This document shows positions 24,275 to 33,768 of a stretch of DNA of 43,406 nucleotides, in pieces. Each line of letters begins with the position of its first letter. Position 1 is the stretch's first letter. The notes under the pieces are model-generated. The model saw only the letters and a program-made list of their open reading frames with translations, was not told the origin of the DNA and searched no databases. The stretch is from Gemmatimonadota bacterium (GTDB taxonomy: Bacteria > Gemmatimonadota > Gemmatimonadetes > Longimicrobiales > Gaopeijiaceae), in NCBI GenBank assembly GCA_027623325.1, contig JAQBXY010000027.1:1-43406 (forward strand). The letters are read 5' to 3'. Made by a program: the position numbers and the translations under genes.

Positions 24275-26671
24275 ATGGTACAGTCCTTCTTTCAGGTGGC
24301 CGCGGTGGCCTCCCTCCTCGGGCCTACCGGCTCCGAGGCTTCGGGGCCCGGTATGTCTCGGCTGGCCGAGCGTTATGTGGGGACCGCCGCCGAGATCGTG
24401 GTCGCGACCCCCTCCGTTTTGTCCGCGGGGATCGCCATCGATGGTCGCCTCGACGACGCTGTGTGGGCTCAGGCCGCGGTGCTCGAGGGCTTCACTCAGT
24501 TCAAACCGGTCGAGGGATCGGCTGCATCGCAGAGGACCGAGATCAGGGTGATCGTTGATTCCGACGCGATCTACTTCTCGATCAAGGCATTCGACGACAA
24601 TCCGGCAGGCATTCGAGCGACCCTCTCGGCTCGGGACTCCTACGTGTTTTCGGACGACTACGTGCGGGTCATCCTCGATACGTTCGACGATCAACGCCGT
24701 GCCTATGTGTTCACCGTCAACCCGCTTGGGGTGCAACATGACGGGCTGTGGAACGAGAGCGGTGGTGGCACAGGGCGGCGTGGCCATGGGAGCTTCGGGT
24801 CACCGATCGACGCCAACCCCGATTTCCTTTGGGATTCGGACGGACGACTCACCGAGGAGGGATACGAGGCGGAGCTTCGAATCCCCTTCAAGAGCCTCCG
24901 GTTTCCCGAGATGGAGGTTCAGTCGTGGGGCCTTCAGGTCGAGCGCAAGATCCAGCGCAACGGGTACGAGAGTTCATGGGCGCCGATCACCGGTAATGTC
25001 GCCAACAAGCTGACCCAGGCCGGCCAGCTGACGGACCTGCGGAATCTCGACATGGGCTTGTTCATAGAGCTCAACCCCGTCCTGACGGGCTCCCGCAACG
25101 GAGCGGTCGATGAGCTTGGGAACTTCGGCCACGACAGTCCCACGGGCGACTTCGGCTTCAATGCGACGTATGGTGTGACGTCGAACCTGACGCTCGACGC
25201 GACGTACAACCCGGATTTCAGTCAGGTCGAGGCCGACGCGGGTCAGGTCCAGGTAAACGAGCGCTTCGCGCTGTTCTTCGAGGAGAAGCGTCCCTTCTTC
25301 CTCGAGGGGACCGAGATCTTCGGGATGCCCCAGCAGATCGTGTATACGCGTACCATTGCCAATCCGATCGCCGGCGGGAAGATGACCGGTAAGGTGGGCG
25401 GACTCAATGTCGGCTACATGGGTGCGATCGATGAATCCTTCGATGTCACCGGATCGGACACATATGTGAATCTGGTCAGGGTTCGCGGTGACGTCGGGAC
25501 GTCGGGCACGATCGGGGCGGTGTACACCGACAGGACCGTTGGGTCGGGCGATTTCAACCGTGTCGCCGGGGCGGACGCTCGCATCCAGCTGGGGGGCCGC
25601 TACACCGTCACAGTTATGGGCGCGCAGAGCTTCACCGATAACGCCGACGTGCTCGAACGCGTAGACGGTCGCATGGGCTCTGCGCGAGTGGAGGGGGCCG
25701 GGCGGACGTTCTCGTTCAATGCCGACCTCGTCGACACGCAGGGTGACTTCAAGCCGGGTAGTGGCTTCTTCCAGCGAATCGGCTCGACCCAGTTCAACTC
25801 CCGCCTTTCATACACCTGGTTCGGAAAGCGCGGCGGCTTCCTCGAACAGGTGAACCCGTCGTTCGAGGCGAAGGGCTTTTGGGATCACGACGCGTTCTGG
25901 GGCGGCCAAGGGCTCGAGGAAGGTCAGCTGCAACTCGGGTGGCGCGTGGGTTTCCGCGACAATATCACGTTCTGGGGCAACGTTCAGCGAAATGTCTTCG
26001 AGTATCAGCCGGAACAGTACGAGGGACTCTATGTCGGGATGAGCGACGGTTCGTTTCAGGCCTTCAGGCCGAACCAGGATCTGTTCGGCGGCCTCAACGG
26101 CTACACCTTGTCGCTGTGGGTCAACAAGTGGGAGCGGGTCCGCGGGAACATCCGCTACAGCGTCAACGACACGCCGATCTTCGACAGGGGGTTCGGTGTG
26201 GCGGTGGAGCCGGCGCGCTCGTACTCAGGCAACCTGAGCCTCAACTTGTACCTGACCCGATCGCTCTCGTCAGACATCGGAGTTACGCAGAGCCGACTCG
26301 TCCGGAAGCGCGACGGGGTCGAGCATTCCAGCGCGATCATCCCCCGTATCAAGACTCAGTATCAATTCTCCCGGGCCCTCTTCCTGCGAGGGATCTTCGA
26401 GTACGGGTCCCAGGAGAGGTCCGCGTTGATGGATCCGAGCACAGGACTGGCGCTCTATCAGTGCGGTACGACCGCGTGCACGACCAGGAGCGGGTCCTTG
26501 GGCCACGACTTCCGGATCGAGGGTTTGGTCGGGTACGAGCCCTCACCCGGTACGGTCTTCTTCCTGGGCTACACGCGTGAAATGGACGACGGGTCGGCGT
26601 TCGGGTTCGAGAACGTACGTGCGACCGCTGATGGGTTGTTCGTCAAACTGAGCTATCGCTTCCGAATGTAG
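24275..26671 (+). CDS. DUF5916 (carbohydrate-binding-9-like plus beta-barrel) outer-membrane protein
   Basis: This 798-residue protein begins with a weak signal-like stretch (MVQSFFQVAAVASLLG). The N-terminal CBM9-like domain (residues about 50-240) shows IAIDGRLDDAVWAQA and YVRVILDTFDDQRRAYVFTV. The DUF5916 barrel follows with LDATYNPDFSQVEADAGQV and RFALFFEEKRPFFLEG. It ends in an outer-membrane-style aromatic C-terminus (FVKLSYRFRM). Such proteins are common in Gemmatimonadota and Bacteroidota. The function is uncertain but surface exposure is likely. It is divergent from the zinc-ribbon/NudC pair; the 128 bases between hold TATATT at 24203-24208, a possible -10 without a good -35. Confidence 0.87.
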   Translation: MVQSFFQVAAVASLLGPTGSEASGPGMSRLAERYVGTAAEIVVATPSVLSAGIAIDGRLDDAVWAQAAVLEGFTQFKPVEGSAASQRTEIRVIVDSDAIYFSIKAFDDNPAGIRATLSARDSYVFSDDYVRVILDTFDDQRRAYVFTVNPLGVQHDGLWNESGGGTGRRGHGSFGSPIDANPDFLWDSDGRLTEEGYEAELRIPFKSLRFPEMEVQSWGLQVERKIQRNGYESSWAPITGNVANKLTQAGQLTDLRNLDMGLFIELNPVLTGSRNGAVDELGNFGHDSPTGDFGFNATYGVTSNLTLDATYNPDFSQVEADAGQVQVNERFALFFEEKRPFFLEGTEIFGMPQQIVYTRTIANPIAGGKMTGKVGGLNVGYMGAIDESFDVTGSDTYVNLVRVRGDVGTSGTIGAVYTDRTVGSGDFNRVAGADARIQLGGRYTVTVMGAQSFTDNADVLERVDGRMGSARVEGAGRTFSFNADLVDTQGDFKPGSGFFQRIGSTQFNSRLSYTWFGKRGGFLEQVNPSFEAKGFWDHDAFWGGQGLEEGQLQLGWRVGFRDNITFWGNVQRNVFEYQPEQYEGLYVGMSDGSFQAFRPNQDLFGGLNGYTLSLWVNKWERVRGNIRYSVNDTPIFDRGFGVAVEPARSYSGNLSLNLYLTRSLSSDIGVTQSRLVRKRDGVEHSSAIIPRIKTQYQFSRALFLRGIFEYGSQERSALMDPSTGLALYQCGTTACTTRSGSLGHDFRIEGLVGYEPSPGTVFFLGYTREMDDGSAFGFENVRATADGLFVKLSYRFRM

Positions 26672-27611: not shown

Positions 27612-27896
27612 ATGAACAAGTCCGACCTCGTGGAAGCCCTCGCCAACGCTACTGGCATGACCAAGGCCGATGCATCTCGTGCTGTGGATGCCATGTTCGC
27701 ACCCGCCGGAGGCATTATCTCTGCTGCCCTCAAGGGTGGTCAGCGTGTCCAGATCACCGGTTTCGGCACTTTCGAGGCCAAGCACCGTAAGGCGCGGCAG
27801 GGCCGCAATCCGCGCACCGGCCAGACGATTCAAATCCGTGCGACCAACACGCCGGCGTTCCGCGCGGGCAAGGGTCTCAAGGACGCAATCCAGTAG
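27612..27896 (+). CDS. HU-family DNA-binding protein
   Basis: ATG 27612 follows AGGAG (about 27599-27603) and starts the canonical MNKSDLVEALANATGMTKAD. The 94-residue product has the full HU/IHF fold: VQITGFGTFEAKHRKARQG, then RNPRTGQTIQI and FRAGKGLKDAI. It is a nucleoid protein that bends and compacts DNA. It is followed by a strong bidirectional hairpin and is convergent with the degenerate DEAD-box gene. Confidence 0.96.
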   Translation: MNKSDLVEALANATGMTKADASRAVDAMFAPAGGIISAALKGGQRVQITGFGTFEAKHRKARQGRNPRTGQTIQIRATNTPAFRAGKGLKDAIQ

Positions 27897-28027: not shown

Positions 28028-29581
28028 CTACGACGAACGGGGGGTAGGGCGTCGAGTCGGAGCGGTGCCTCGGCGGGGTCGGTCGAAGTCCGCGCGGACG
28101 GCACGGCCTTTGATTGTGGTCCCGTTGATGGCCTGGATGACCTTTCGAGCCACGGCGTCGTGAACCTCTACGATCGAGTGGCTTTCCTTGATCTCGATTT
28201 TCCCGACGGATTCACCCGACACGCCCGTCTCGCCCGTGATCGCACCGAGTAGGTCTCCGGCCCGGAGCCCGTCTCGCTCACCGACACCCACGAAGAGCTT
28301 GGCCCACGCGGGCGTCGAAGTCGCCTGTGACGCGGCACTCATCGTGCCGGATCCGGATGACGACCTCGCCGCCGAACGCGGAGCGTCCCTCTTCCGCAAC
28401 AGCGCGACGGCGGCAGCGGCTACCTCCGCGGGATCGAATCTGTCGAACAGAGGCTCGAGCGCGAGGAGGTACGGGGCTAGATCTTCCTCCTCCATTGCGC
28501 GCTCTACCATCTGCCGCAGCTGCTCGACGACCCCGCCTGGACCTGGGGGAGGAGGCGGGAAGGGTACGGTCACGTACCCGGTCTGTCGGCCCACACTCTT
28601 CACGTGCGCGAGCTCGCGCGGCAGCACGATGACGACACCATTGCCGCTGATCGAGTGGCGTCTGTCGAGCGTGTCCGAGTCCCAGGGGGCATCGGAACTG
28701 ACGACCACGACCTGGGCGATACCCTTGGCCGCGGATCGAGCTGCCAGGGCGTCGACACCGAGCCACACGGGCACGGATTCGTCTCCTGGTGCCCCGGCCG
28801 TGAAGCCCCTGAGCGTCAGGTAGTCCCCCATGTCGGCCGCCCGATCTTCGCTTCGACAGAAGACCAGGACGTGACGGGCCCCGTCCGAAAGAACCTCTTC
28901 GACGATCGCGAGAGCAGCCGATTCACGGGGCTCCGGAGCAACCCGGAAGCGAATCTCCCCGCGACTCGGCCCGTCCGACGACGCCGTTGCCGGCAGTGTC
29001 ATGGCTCGCTTGAACGTCCGCTCGGTCAGGTCCGTCACAGCCGTGGTCATCGGGAGCGCACTGAGCACCCGCTGTGCTCCCTCCGGTAGATAGTCGAGGA
29101 CGCGCTCGACATCTTCGAGGCCGGATATTTGATCGATGAGTTGAGCCTGGTCGACCACGATCGCGTCGACTGCGGTTGCCGATAGCTCACCAGAGGTCAG
29201 GCCGTGAACAAGGTCCTCGGCCGTACCGAACAAGACCTGGGCACGTTCGGGGAGCACCCAGGCCTTCCCGAGGGCGGCGACCGTGTGTCCGGTCACTGAC
29301 CCGAGGCGGGCCACGGACTCTGCCAGGCTGTCTGCGATGTCCGTCGTCGCACACACGACGAGGGCAAGAGGGCCATCGCCCACAGGCTCGAGGCGGCTCA
29401 GCAAGCCAACGGCCCAGGCGTGGAGCAGACCGCTGCCGGGGCCGGCCGCGAGCAAGAGGTTATTTCCCTTTCTGAGGACGGGGATCGCGGCCTCTTGAAG
29501 CGGGGTCGGGGATTCGATCCCCTCGGCGGCGAGCGCCTCGGTCAACTCCGGGGCAGCACCCAGGTCCTCAAATGATTCCAC
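28028..29581 (-). CDS. Degenerate DEAD-box helicase-like protein with DbpA-type RNA-binding domain
   Basis: From GTG 29581, one base after the previous stop, the product is 517 residues and begins MESFEDLGAAPEL, a normal DEAD-box N-terminus; GTG 29623 would add 14 residues. The Q motif is intact (SPTPLQ, Q29). The ATPase motifs are lost: Walker A reads AGPGSGLL, so the Lys and Thr are L52 and L53. Motif II is DQAQ (144-147) instead of DEAD, and motif III is SAL (174-176) rather than SAT. Motifs V and VI are barely traceable (VSSDAPWDSDTL, GRQTGY). After a Pro-rich and Ser-rich linker comes a DbpA/CsdA-type RNA-binding domain (LFVGVGERDGLRAGDLLG, SHSIVEVHD, IKGRAVRADF). It is probably an RNA-binding protein without helicase activity. 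Confidence 0.85.
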   Translation of the reverse strand: MESFEDLGAAPELTEALAAEGIESPTPLQEAAIPVLRKGNNLLLAAGPGSGLLHAWAVGLLSRLEPVGDGPLALVVCATTDIADSLAESVARLGSVTGHTVAALGKAWVLPERAQVLFGTAEDLVHGLTSGELSATAVDAIVVDQAQLIDQISGLEDVERVLDYLPEGAQRVLSALPMTTAVTDLTERTFKRAMTLPATASSDGPSRGEIRFRVAPEPRESAALAIVEEVLSDGARHVLVFCRSEDRAADMGDYLTLRGFTAGAPGDESVPVWLGVDALAARSAAKGIAQVVVVSSDAPWDSDTLDRRHSISGNGVVIVLPRELAHVKSVGRQTGYVTVPFPPPPPGPGGVVEQLRQMVERAMEEEDLAPYLLALEPLFDRFDPAEVAAAAVALLRKRDAPRSAARSSSGSGTMSAASQATSTPAWAKLFVGVGERDGLRAGDLLGAITGETGVSGESVGKIEIKESHSIVEVHDAVARKVIQAINGTTIKGRAVRADFDRPRRGTAPTRRPTPRSS

Positions 29582-29582
29582 G

Positions 29583-29909
29583 TCAGAGACTCGCTCGTGT
29601 AGGCTCGCCTGACCCGGGACCACCTGCGTCGCCGGGTTCGTACGGGAGCTGATTCAGGAAACGCTGTACTTCGTAGTCCAGCCGCGAGGTTCGCAGCTGG
29701 TCCGTGTTCGCGACCACCGCCGTGTACGCCCCATGACGATGGGCCGAGACGGTGACCGACCCCTCGGCCCCGTTATACGTAGCGCTGTGTCCACTTCCCT
29801 TCGCCCGGCTCAGGCCGACGAAGCTGGGTAGGAAGCTCTCGGCTGTCGCGAGGACTTCCTTGGGCGAGAACGCTGTCTTTCTTTGATAACCGGCCATGAC
29901 TCTGCGCAT
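29583..29909 (-). CDS. Hypothetical protein, 108 aa
   Basis: This 108-residue protein is of unknown family. It starts MRRVMAGYQRKTAFSPKE; an in-frame ATG at 29897 (MAGYQRK) is an alternative start. The central part is beta-like (HSATYNGAEGSVTVSAHRHG, YTAVVANTDQL) and the C-terminal end is Gly/Pro-rich. It may be a small alpha/beta domain of the polyketide-cyclase/START type, but this is only an impression. Its stop lies one base before the preferred start of the pseudo-helicase, so the two are likely coupled. Confidence 0.6.
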   Translation of the reverse strand: MRRVMAGYQRKTAFSPKEVLATAESFLPSFVGLSRAKGSGHSATYNGAEGSVTVSAHRHGAYTAVVANTDQLRTSRLDYEVQRFLNQLPYEPGDAGGPGSGEPTRASL

Positions 29910-29933: not shown

Positions 29934-30509
29934 TCAAGGCCCGAGAAAGGTGCCGAGGGCGGTCCGGTTGTGGAAGCCCCGCACGCTGCCCCCTCCTGCG
30001 ACGATGGTGGGTGCGTCCGTGACACCCGCTTGCAGAGCCTCCTCGCGTGCCTCGAGAACTGCCTGCTCGAACCGATCTACATCGAGGACGGCCTTCGTCT
30101 CGGTGACGTCCAGTCCGAAGGCCACGCCGATCTCGACCAGCACGTCGACCCGGCCGATGTCACGTCCTTCGAGGAGGTAGGCTTCGAAGATTCTGTTCCG
30201 TACGGCATCACCGACTCCGTGAGTCTCCGCGTACAGGGCCAGCTCGTGGCTCTTTCTCGTCCACGGGACGAGCCGTGCCGGCGCGAAGAGAATGTCCCGA
30301 CTCTCGCTCTGTTGGCGGCACGACGCCCAGCGTGCGGCCAGGGCGGGATCGTCCGTTGTGACGAGCGAGGCTGGCGGCGGGCGTCGCTCGAAGGGAACCC
30401 AAGCTACCGCTCGCCCCGCCGGGTGATCGATCGCGGCGAGTTCTCGAGCCACTAGGTACGAGACCGGATCCGAGAAATCGAAGAAGAATTGGACGGGGGT
30501 GTGTTTCAT
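29934..30509 (-). CDS. DsbA-family / 2-hydroxychromene-2-carboxylate isomerase-like protein
   Basis: This 191-residue protein starts MKHTPVQFFFDFSDPVSYL, the F-x-F-D-F-x-x-P-x-S-Y-L pattern of the HCCA-isomerase/GST-kappa branch of the thioredoxin fold. The helical insert follows, and the C-terminal part GVTDAPTIVAGGGSVRGFH has the cis-Pro (APTIV) of the family. There is no CxxC, so it is not a disulfide oxidase. HCCA isomerases act in aromatic ring degradation with glutathione, but no such pathway is nearby. It is divergent from the aminotransferase. Confidence 0.82.
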   Translation of the reverse strand: MKHTPVQFFFDFSDPVSYLVARELAAIDHPAGRAVAWVPFERRPPPASLVTTDDPALAARWASCRQQSESRDILFAPARLVPWTRKSHELALYAETHGVGDAVRNRIFEAYLLEGRDIGRVDVLVEIGVAFGLDVTETKAVLDVDRFEQAVLEAREEALQAGVTDAPTIVAGGGSVRGFHNRTALGTFLGP

Positions 30510-30630
30510 TGTCCGGAAGGTGCCGCCTCGTCTCGGGCCGGTCCAGGGAGGGCCGGGGGGCGGTCGCGAGCTTTCTTGCGTCGCCCGCTCTCACCATATT
30601 GCGAGCCCGCAAGCACCGAATGAGGTGACC

Positions 30631-31830
30631 ATGCAGTTCAGTTCGAACGTCGAGAAGCTCAAGCCGTCCGCCACGATCGCGGTCAGCACGCTCGCTAAGC
30701 GGCTGGCCGCCGAAGGCAGAGACATTATCAATCTGAGCGCCGGCGAGCCCGATTTCGGTACGCCGACCTTTGTATCGGAAGCGGCCATCCAAGGTATTCG
30801 CGACGGACAGACCCGGTACACGGCTCCAGCAGGCATCCCCGAGCTTCGCAAAGCCATCGCAGCTCGCCTGAGCGAACGGGCCGGTCGAGACTTGGACTGG
30901 GAGGGTGTTGTCGTAACCTCCGGCGCCAAGCAGTCCTTGTTCAACGCCATCTTCAGCCTGTTTGGATCGGGCGACGAGGTGCTCATCGCGGCCCCGTACT
31001 GGACGACGTACCCGGACCTCGTGACGATCGCGCGGGCTGAGTCCGTCGAAGTGTTCGGCCCGGAGGAGAACGATTTCAAGATCACGCCTCAGGAGCTCGA
31101 AGCGGCTGCCACGGAGCGCACGCGGGGGTTGATCATCAACACACCCTGCAACCCGACCGGGGCGGTCTATGACGTGGCTGAGCTGCAGGCGATCGCCGAG
31201 TGGTGCCGCGATCGGGACATCTGGCTGATCAGCGATGAGATCTACCGCAGCATTCATCACGACGGCGATGGAGCGGCGCCGGGCGTGCTCAGCCTGCCGG
31301 CAGCGAGCCTTGGTCGCTACGTACTGGTCGACGGTGCATCGAAGAGCTTCGCGATGACCGGTTGGAGGATCGGCTTCTCCTTCGCAGACACCAAGGTGTC
31401 GAAGACCTTCACCGCGCTACAGAGTCAGGTGACATCGAACTCGGCGACACCGTCGCAGGTGGCCGCCCTCGCCGCATATGGCGACGCGGTCGCAGCGGAC
31501 GCGTCGATCAAGGAGATGGGCGTCGCGTTCCGGCGCAGGCGTGACCTCGTTACGGCGCGGATGAGGGAGCTCCTTCCCGGTGTCCCGTTCATCGAGCCGA
31601 GAGGCGCGTTCTACCTCTTCTTTCGGGTCGACGGTTTCTTCGATGGCGATGTGCAGGATGCCACCGCGTGGTGCTCACGGCTCTTGACGGAGAAGGGCGT
31701 GGCCCTCGTCCCGGGCGGCGCGTTCGGAGACGACCGGTGGGTGCGCATGAGCTTCGCGACGTCGGACGATCTTCTAGACAGCGCCCTGACGCGGATCGCC
31801 GAGATGGTGGGCGCGGGCGCCTCGACCTGA
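30631..31830 (+). CDS. aspC: Aspartate aminotransferase, class I (PLP-dependent)
   Basis: ATG 30631 follows GAGGTGACC and begins MQFSSNVEKLKPSATIAV, the start of the type Ib aspartate aminotransferases. The upstream extension from 30499 lacks homology. The 399-residue product shows NLSAGEPDFGTP, the NTPCNPTGAVY motif, SDEIYR, the PLP lysine in DGASKSFAMTGWRIG, and the substrate-binding Arg in WVRMSFA. It interconverts aspartate/oxaloacetate and glutamate/2-oxoglutarate. It is a cytoplasmic, stand-alone gene convergent with the tyrosine phosphatase, with a 5-base gap. Confidence 0.93.
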   Translation: MQFSSNVEKLKPSATIAVSTLAKRLAAEGRDIINLSAGEPDFGTPTFVSEAAIQGIRDGQTRYTAPAGIPELRKAIAARLSERAGRDLDWEGVVVTSGAKQSLFNAIFSLFGSGDEVLIAAPYWTTYPDLVTIARAESVEVFGPEENDFKITPQELEAAATERTRGLIINTPCNPTGAVYDVAELQAIAEWCRDRDIWLISDEIYRSIHHDGDGAAPGVLSLPAASLGRYVLVDGASKSFAMTGWRIGFSFADTKVSKTFTALQSQVTSNSATPSQVAALAAYGDAVAADASIKEMGVAFRRRRDLVTARMRELLPGVPFIEPRGAFYLFFRVDGFFDGDVQDATAWCSRLLTEKGVALVPGGAFGDDRWVRMSFATSDDLLDSALTRIAEMVGAGAST

Positions 31831-32502: not shown

Positions 32503-33768
32503 TTGCTTTTGGATGCTCCCCGTTTTGCGGACCTGAATATTTCGCCCGAGCGCCTAGCCGCGATCGAGGCCCTCGGCTGGACGACGCCGACCCCAATCCA
32601 AGTGCAGGCTATTCCCGCAGGCCTGAGGGCCACCGACGTGGTTGGGATCGCGCAGACCGGAACTGGGAAGACCGCGGCCTTCATGATCCCGGCGCTCGAG
32701 AAGCTCAACGTGGGTCAAGGACTACAGGTCCTGGTCCTCTGTCCGACTCGGGAGTTGGCGCAGCAGGTGTCCGACGATACCGCCGCTCTTTCCAAAGGGA
32801 CGAGCGTTCGGTCCGAGGCGATTTTCGGAGGCGTGAGCTACGGCCCTCAGATCACTGCGCTCGAGCAAGGCTTTGAAGTGATCGTGGCGACGCCCGGTCG
32901 TTTCATTGACCATATGCAATCGAAGCGGGTCGACCTGAGCAAGGTGGCCTATCTCGTGCTCGACGAGGCTGACCGTATGCTCGACATGGGCTTTCGGCCT
33001 CAGATCGAGGAAGTGCTGAAGGGGATGCCGAAGAAGCGGCAGACCATGCTGTTCAGCGCGACCATGCCCAATGGCGTACACGATCTCGCGCTCCGAATCA
33101 CCAAGGACCCCATCTGGATCGAGGCCACACCGGCAGGAACCACGGCCGACGGAATCGAAGAGTTCTTCTACTCCGTGAAGCCCGAGAAGAAGCCCGACCT
33201 GCTCCTCGAACTGTTCAAGGGTCCGGGTTGGGATCAGATCCTGATCTTCACACGGACGAAGGCGGGAGCCGACGTCTTGGAGGCGCGTCTCCAGCGAGAA
33301 GGCATTTCTGCCGACGTAATGCATTCGAATCGGCACATGAAGCACCGGACCCGGGCGCTGGAACGCTTCGCCACAGGTAAGGTCAAGGTCTTGGTCGCGA
33401 CCGACGTGGCCCAACGGGGGCTCGACGTCGAGGGGATCAGCCACGTGGTTAACTATGACGTCCCGCTCGACCCAGAGGACTACATCCACCGCATCGGCCG
33501 GACGGGCCGGGCGGGAGCGACGGGCACGGCTATTACGTTCATCACCGCGGGTGATCTTGGCGCCATGAAGAGCCTCGAACACCGTCTCGGACGGGCGGTC
33601 GCTCGTGTTCACCTTCCGGAGTTCGACTACGCGGGGACGCCTCAGACCGAGAGCCGCTCCGCCGCGATGCGGGGCCGGAAATCGCGCTCACCTCACGGCC
33701 TCGGAACACGGTCCGCCGCAGAGCTGACTCCCGAGGAACTGGAAGCTCTGCTCAACCCTGGGTCCTGA
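32503..33768 (+). CDS. DEAD-box RNA helicase
   Basis: This 421-residue protein starts at TTG 32503 (or TTG 32509, which gives MDAPRFADL). All motifs are intact: Q motif TPTPIQ, AQTGTGKT, PTRELAQQ, LDEADRM, FSATMP, ATDVAQRGLD and HRIGRTGR. The C-terminal tail after the helicase core is short and basic (RGRKSRSPHGLG). It fits the RhlE/DeaD-like group that remodels RNA in ribosome assembly or cold adaptation. The start context and the hairpin suggest translational control. The next gene follows after three bases. Confidence 0.95.
   Translation: MLLDAPRFADLNISPERLAAIEALGWTTPTPIQVQAIPAGLRATDVVGIAQTGTGKTAAFMIPALEKLNVGQGLQVLVLCPTRELAQQVSDDTAALSKGTSVRSEAIFGGVSYGPQITALEQGFEVIVATPGRFIDHMQSKRVDLSKVAYLVLDEADRMLDMGFRPQIEEVLKGMPKKRQTMLFSATMPNGVHDLALRITKDPIWIEATPAGTTADGIEEFFYSVKPEKKPDLLLELFKGPGWDQILIFTRTKAGADVLEARLQREGISADVMHSNRHMKHRTRALERFATGKVKVLVATDVAQRGLDVEGISHVVNYDVPLDPEDYIHRIGRTGRAGATGTAITFITAGDLGAMKSLEHRLGRAVARVHLPEFDYAGTPQTESRSAAMRGRKSRSPHGLGTRSAAELTPEELEALLNPGS

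Follow-up and report, generated by a model that had tools for sequence, protein, structure and literature searches.

What does a DEAD-box protein do once its catalytic motifs are gone? The question is raised by a minus-strand gene at positions 28028-29581 of the window, the 43,406-nucleotide stretch of Gemmatimonadota DNA analysed here. The sequence-only reading of this locus had proposed that selection preserved RNA binding but not ATP hydrolysis, and that the protein has a structural or regulatory role in ribosome assembly. The coordinates it gave are correct. The full open reading frame spans 28028-29623 on the minus strand (531 aa; 3' limit 28028), and the preferred start is the GTG at 29581, from which 517 aa are encoded. 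This start is backed by the orthologues, many of which have Met at this residue in the alignment; the TGA of the upstream gene (29585-29583) ends one nucleotide before it.

The upstream gene, orf108 (29583..29909, minus strand), lies directly next to the pseudohelicase gene and is probably co-translated with it. Its 108 aa product has no Pfam or NCBIfam match and represents a conserved uncharacterised family. Further upstream are a gene for a DsbA-like thioredoxin (29934..30509, minus strand) and a divergent class I/II aminotransferase gene (30499..31830, plus strand). An HU-family gene (27612..27896, plus strand) is convergent and lies downstream. The product of 24275-26671 (plus strand) is a DUF5916/CBM9-like protein; this conserved gene adjoins the pseudohelicase locus in several genomes of the window's family. 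Signals found in a scan for promoters and terminators were near chance level.

All the substitutions named in the sequence-only reading are present. The former Walker A motif (motif I; 29423..29446, minus strand, as are all features of the gene) reads AGPGSGLL; the glycines are kept, and the Lys and Thr have both become Leu. The DEAD of motif II (29141..29152) is now DQAQ, and the SAT of motif III (29054..29062) is now SAL. The degeneration goes beyond these three motifs: motif V (ARGLD) and motif VI (HRIGRxGR, with the arginine finger) are also lost, which makes hydrolysis still less likely. Both are absent from the RecA2-like domain (28538..28978; residues 216-362), which has instead the new conserved blocks EDRAAD and GAPGDxxxPVWL; the former motif VI site (28655..28669) reads LDRRH, and this is conserved across the window's family. 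The residues of motifs Ia and Ib for core RNA contact are altered. The Q-motif region (29495..29572; F18 to Q43 in the 531-aa numbering) is kept. It had been described as well kept, which holds for the window's family and for three further family-level groups (f2, f3 and f9) but not for f4, f5, f6 and f7, where the motif is gone.

Domain searches agree with this picture. Pfam finds a DEAD domain (38 bits) and, as had been claimed, a C-terminal DbpA-type RNA-binding domain (RBD; PF03880, 28091..28300, residues 442-511), which scores 82.1 bits (E 3e-23) against a cut-off of 25.6. Helices resembling the DeaD dimerisation domain (PF25399; 28385..28537) are sub-threshold in the window protein (17.9 bits, cut-off 23), and reach E <= 0.01 in 36 of 54 aligned members. 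The best NCBIfam model is PRK11776, at 138.5 bits; the DbpA equivalog cut-off of 524 bits is not reached. Of the features that define the DbpA/YxiN subfamily, the RBD and two predicted RecA-like domains are present; motifs I, II, III, V and VI are not.

The fold is predicted to have outlived the motifs. An AF2 model of the window protein (pLDDT 89.9) has two RecA-like domains, the helices and the RBD; over 196 residues of its RecA1 domain it superposes on DeaD (5gju) with Z 30.7 and rmsd 1.6, and for the whole chain Foldseek ranks DbpA (7pli) first, though the input alignment included eight intact helicases and may bias the model towards a helicase fold. A second model was made for an f4 protein in which Pfam finds the RBD alone (L153), from an alignment of degenerate relatives only. 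This model also retains the RecA domains (6aib: Z 20.8, rmsd 2.6 over 171 residues), and DbpA is again the top Foldseek match.

An intact DEAD-box gene had been placed 3 kb away. There is such a gene at 32503-33768, about 2.9 kb off, and its product has TGTGKT, DEAD, SAT and HRIGR; however, it is of the RBD-less CshA/RhlE type and is not the matching intact version. The intact RBD-bearing paralogue of this genome, of DeaD/CsdA type, is found on a separate contig (G000:C14:27058-28704).

The gene is far from unique to this genome. A scan of genome contigs returned a single relative, named as MAG OFTM400 (Gemmatimonadota). In a census of 298 Gemmatimonadota genomes, counted by hand and including fragmented assemblies which can hide genes, it is present in 71 of the 73 genomes of the window's family (f1). 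Seven other family-level groups of the phylum (f2, f3, f4, f5, f6, f7 and f9) have orthologues in synteny. The convergent HU gene is a phylum-wide anchor, following the pseudohelicase gene in members of f1, f2, f3, f9, f7, f6 and f4. The divergent aminotransferase gene lies upstream in f1, f2, f4 and part of f5; orf108 and the DsbA-like gene precede the pseudohelicase gene in f1 and f2, and the DsbA-like gene is also an anchor in one f3 genome. In some f3, f9 and f7 genomes orf108 is likewise found close by; in f1 and f2 it is the immediate upstream neighbour. In a tree made by a quick method, unrooted and with no bootstrap, a single branch (SH-aLRT 100) separates 61 degenerate from 20 intact RBD proteins, and each family group forms a clade except f4; f6 falls inside or beside it. 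Synteny is the stronger argument for orthology. Since the pattern is repeated in relatives throughout the phylum, chance is not a concern.

Two genomes of the window's family are exceptions. In one (G096) the pseudohelicase gene has been cleanly deleted and the rest of the neighbourhood is still present; the HU gene is there about 83 bases from orf108 (L199, 5691-6356). The other (G234) apparently lacks the gene. The deletion and the apparent loss indicate that the gene is dispensable, i.e. not strictly essential. Together with the loss of catalytic residues, these absences are what a decaying pseudogene, open by chance in the window genome, would have in its favour. The chance of this is negligible given the presence of the gene in nearly all of the family and across the phylum, the newly conserved positions, an RBD which is the slowest-evolving part, and a dN/dS of 0.08-0.28 among close degenerate pairs (roughly 77-96% identical). 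The last result, far below 1, is the mark of purifying selection. Values near or above 1 were obtained for distant pairs; these were discarded because synonymous sites are saturated, and conclusions are drawn from close pairs and from the pN ratio alone. A pseudogene or an artefact is rejected on dN/dS and conservation.

Selection appears to act unevenly along the protein. The median ratio of pN in the RBD to pN in the core is 0.71 for degenerate proteins (n=51) and 1.56 for intact ones (n=21; Mann-Whitney P 2.4e-9, with pairs that are disjoint yet phylogenetically not fully independent). Mean identity follows the same trend: in f1 it is 0.57 for the RBD versus 0.45 for RecA1, and in intact proteins 0.53 versus 0.67. 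In pseudohelicases the RBD thus evolves more slowly than the core; in the phylum's intact RBD helicases it evolves faster than the core. In f1, 44 positions, including the RecA2 blocks, are conserved at >=85% yet unlike intact helicases. Read from these sequence comparisons, constraint has shifted from the motor onto the RBD and new surfaces. The earlier proposal of selection for RNA binding over hydrolysis stands insofar as constraint is strongest in the RBD; it does not extend to the core, where RNA contacts are largely lost. Any putative RNA binding must therefore rest mainly on the RBD and the basic C-terminal tail. RecA1 is acidic (pI about 4.3).

The loss of catalysis is shared and ancient, and no orthologue has the full set of ATPase motifs; of the two results that would have counted against the sequence-only reading (intact homologues, or dN/dS near 1), neither was obtained. 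An alignment of 159 RBD proteins comprises 44 intact ones and a remainder that is degenerate or incomplete; with eight incomplete sequences left out, 107 are degenerate. Both HRxGR (motif VI) and ARGLD (motif V) are missing in 107/107. DEAD can still be read at motif II in one f7 protein (L121). Walker A GK[T/S] is retained in eight of the 107, namely f3 L048 and L050-L054 and f9 L059 and L060; having GKT but not V or VI, these could be intermediates which bind ATP and do not hydrolyse it. The Walker A Lys and Thr are lost in f1, f2 and f4-f7. Parsimony, which cannot separate gain from loss, counts four changes of the Walker A lysine on the tree. The eight orthologues with GKT point to a stepwise loss of catalysis. 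Judged by these alignments, the common ancestor had likely already lost motifs V and VI, motif II went in almost all lineages, and Walker A followed at a later stage and repeatedly. Divergence is extreme in orthologues from f4, f5 and f6 (L153, L166, L084, L124), in which Pfam finds the RBD alone and no DEAD domain above threshold. A weak sub-threshold Pfam phosphonate-binding match in another f4 protein (L171:1486-3027, minus strand, residues 128-183) is probably due to chance.

These distributions bear on whether the protein binds nucleotide without hydrolysing it and uses it as a switch. The window's family keeps the Q motif and the P-loop glycines G63 and G65, and motif I GKT is found in f3 and in two f9 members, as a switch would lead one to expect. 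However, it cannot be the shared function, because f1, f2 and f4-f7 have lost the Walker A Lys/Thr and f4-f7 the Q motif as well; we consider it rather improbable. As to its class, in sequence and in the predicted structures the protein is a pseudohelicase, with catalytic motifs lost, a helicase fold retained as modelled, and maintenance by selection. It is probably an RNA-binding protein, putatively one that works ATP-free.

Another suggestion is that the pseudohelicase regulates an intact RBD helicase or pairs with it, as a competitive inhibitor or the inactive half of a dimer. The dimerisation-like helices are kept, and the window genome and most f3 genomes have both the pseudohelicase and an intact RBD helicase. 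A second PF03880 protein is, however, found in only 12 of the 71 gene-bearing f1 genomes (those readable at full length are intact DeaD-type helicases). As 59/71 have none, an intact RBD partner is mostly absent; other DEAD-box partners are possible. This role is very improbable.

What the pseudohelicase may bind is suggested by its RBD. The guanine-pocket loop, V473-G-K-I476 (28196..28207), is kept and is equivalent to YxiN I436/G437/I439; in YxiN and Hera this loop contacts guanine through the main chain (PMC3695512). Like E. coli DbpA, 105/110 degenerate proteins have Lys or Arg as the middle residue; in 39/44 intact helicases of the phylum it is Ala, Thr or Ser. The DbpA RRM brings DbpA to nascent ribosomes via hairpin 92 of 23S rRNA (PMC7973409), and 50S maturation is where DbpA, CsdA and YxiN act (PMC8190605). 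Targets of PF03880 domains vary: the Hera RBD binds the single strand adjacent to hairpin 92 and the stem, not hairpin 92 itself (PMC3695512), and for CsdA, binding at hairpin 92 is reportedly absent (PMC8190605). This variation leaves room for the main rival, a selected RNA-binding pseudohelicase with a non-ribosomal target, for example a regulator of mRNA or small RNA, or an RNA chaperone of the general kind represented by CsdA and Hera. The RBD of the window protein is near neutral (pI about 6.9, versus 10.6 in the intact paralogue), and the locus is syntenic with DsbA, orf108, HU and aminotransferase genes, not ribosomal ones. The guanine-pocket Lys/Arg, like DbpA and unlike the intact DeaD-like paralogues, argues against such a target, as does the action of DbpA, CsdA and YxiN on 50S maturation. 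We regard it as unlikely.

The preferred reading, to which we assign a probability of about 0.6, is that the gene encodes a DEAD-box pseudohelicase, an ancient DbpA/DeaD-type duplicate retained as an ATP-independent RNA-binding scaffold, likely on the 50S subunit. The protein could plausibly contribute to 50S assembly by way of 23S rRNA hairpin 92; from the RBD family it can be suggested, with moderate confidence, that it docks or acts as a scaffold during 50S maturation. ATP hydrolysis would have been lost in an early Gemmatimonadota ancestor after duplication of a DbpA/DeaD-type RNA helicase. The RBD would dock on RNA, with 23S rRNA around hairpin 92 in the nascent 50S as the most likely site, and the acidic, newly conserved RecA surfaces may bind either a partner protein or a different region of the particle. 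The pseudohelicase would then serve not as a motor but as a placeholder or recruiter. An inactive E. coli DbpA mutant is said to block 50S assembly (so the title of a 2009 report by Sharpe Elles), and a naturally dead version would thus need a different release step.

A more specific version is tentative, with the odds somewhat against it. Here the protein would be an ATP-independent 50S assembly factor derived from a dead DbpA-type helicase, vertically inherited in Gemmatimonadota, which replaced the RBD helicase in most f1 genomes. The relatives would, as part of the same tentative version, represent successive stages from motor to scaffold: all have lost motifs V and VI, f3 and some f9 members still have Walker A, and f4 and f6 proteins can no longer be recognised as helicases by sequence. 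If true, a bacterial DEAD-box pseudohelicase present throughout a phylum, with intermediates still extant, would be a natural series for this transition, and would address which of the motifs is the first to be lost and whether ATP-free function is possible for a DbpA-type protein. There is also a consequence for annotation pipelines, which will name f1 members as ATP-dependent helicases and see f4 and f6 members as isolated RBDs.

By the count of the 2022 Utp25 paper, only two pseudohelicases had been proposed, Utp25 itself and Deinococcus PriA (PMC9539457). No others were found in the open-access literature searched, nor was anything relevant on RNA helicases of Gemmatimonadota. The closest active systems are DbpA and YxiN of E. 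coli and B. subtilis, which have the same domain order as the window protein and the same guanine-pocket loop, with the Lys as in E. coli DbpA; the window protein differs in lacking the motif I Lys/Thr, DEAD, SAT and motifs V and VI, and in its acidic core. The intact DeaD/CsdA-type paralogue also has two RecA domains, dimerisation-like helices and an RBD. Its motifs are intact, however, its RBD is very basic and evolves faster than its core, and it is missing in most f1 genomes. Utp25, a pseudohelicase of the yeast and human SSU processome, is likewise DEAD-box-derived, with dead motifs and a retained RecA fold (PMC9539457), and is taken as the model for how the window protein may work, but it is eukaryotic, acts in small-subunit assembly, has a disordered N-terminus and lacks a DbpA RBD. 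Among 54 aligned proteins a match to PF22916 (UTP25 NTPase-like) was listed for one relative (E 0.0066) and none for the window protein; this bare match is too weak to claim kinship, and on present evidence Utp25 is not an orthologue. Deinococcus PriA offers a bacterial parallel, a lineage-wide loss of helicase motifs in which nucleic-acid binding is kept, as assayed in PriA (PMC4504706). It is a non-DEAD-box protein of DNA replication restart and the sole PriA of its lineage, whereas the pseudohelicase described here appears to be a retained duplicate.
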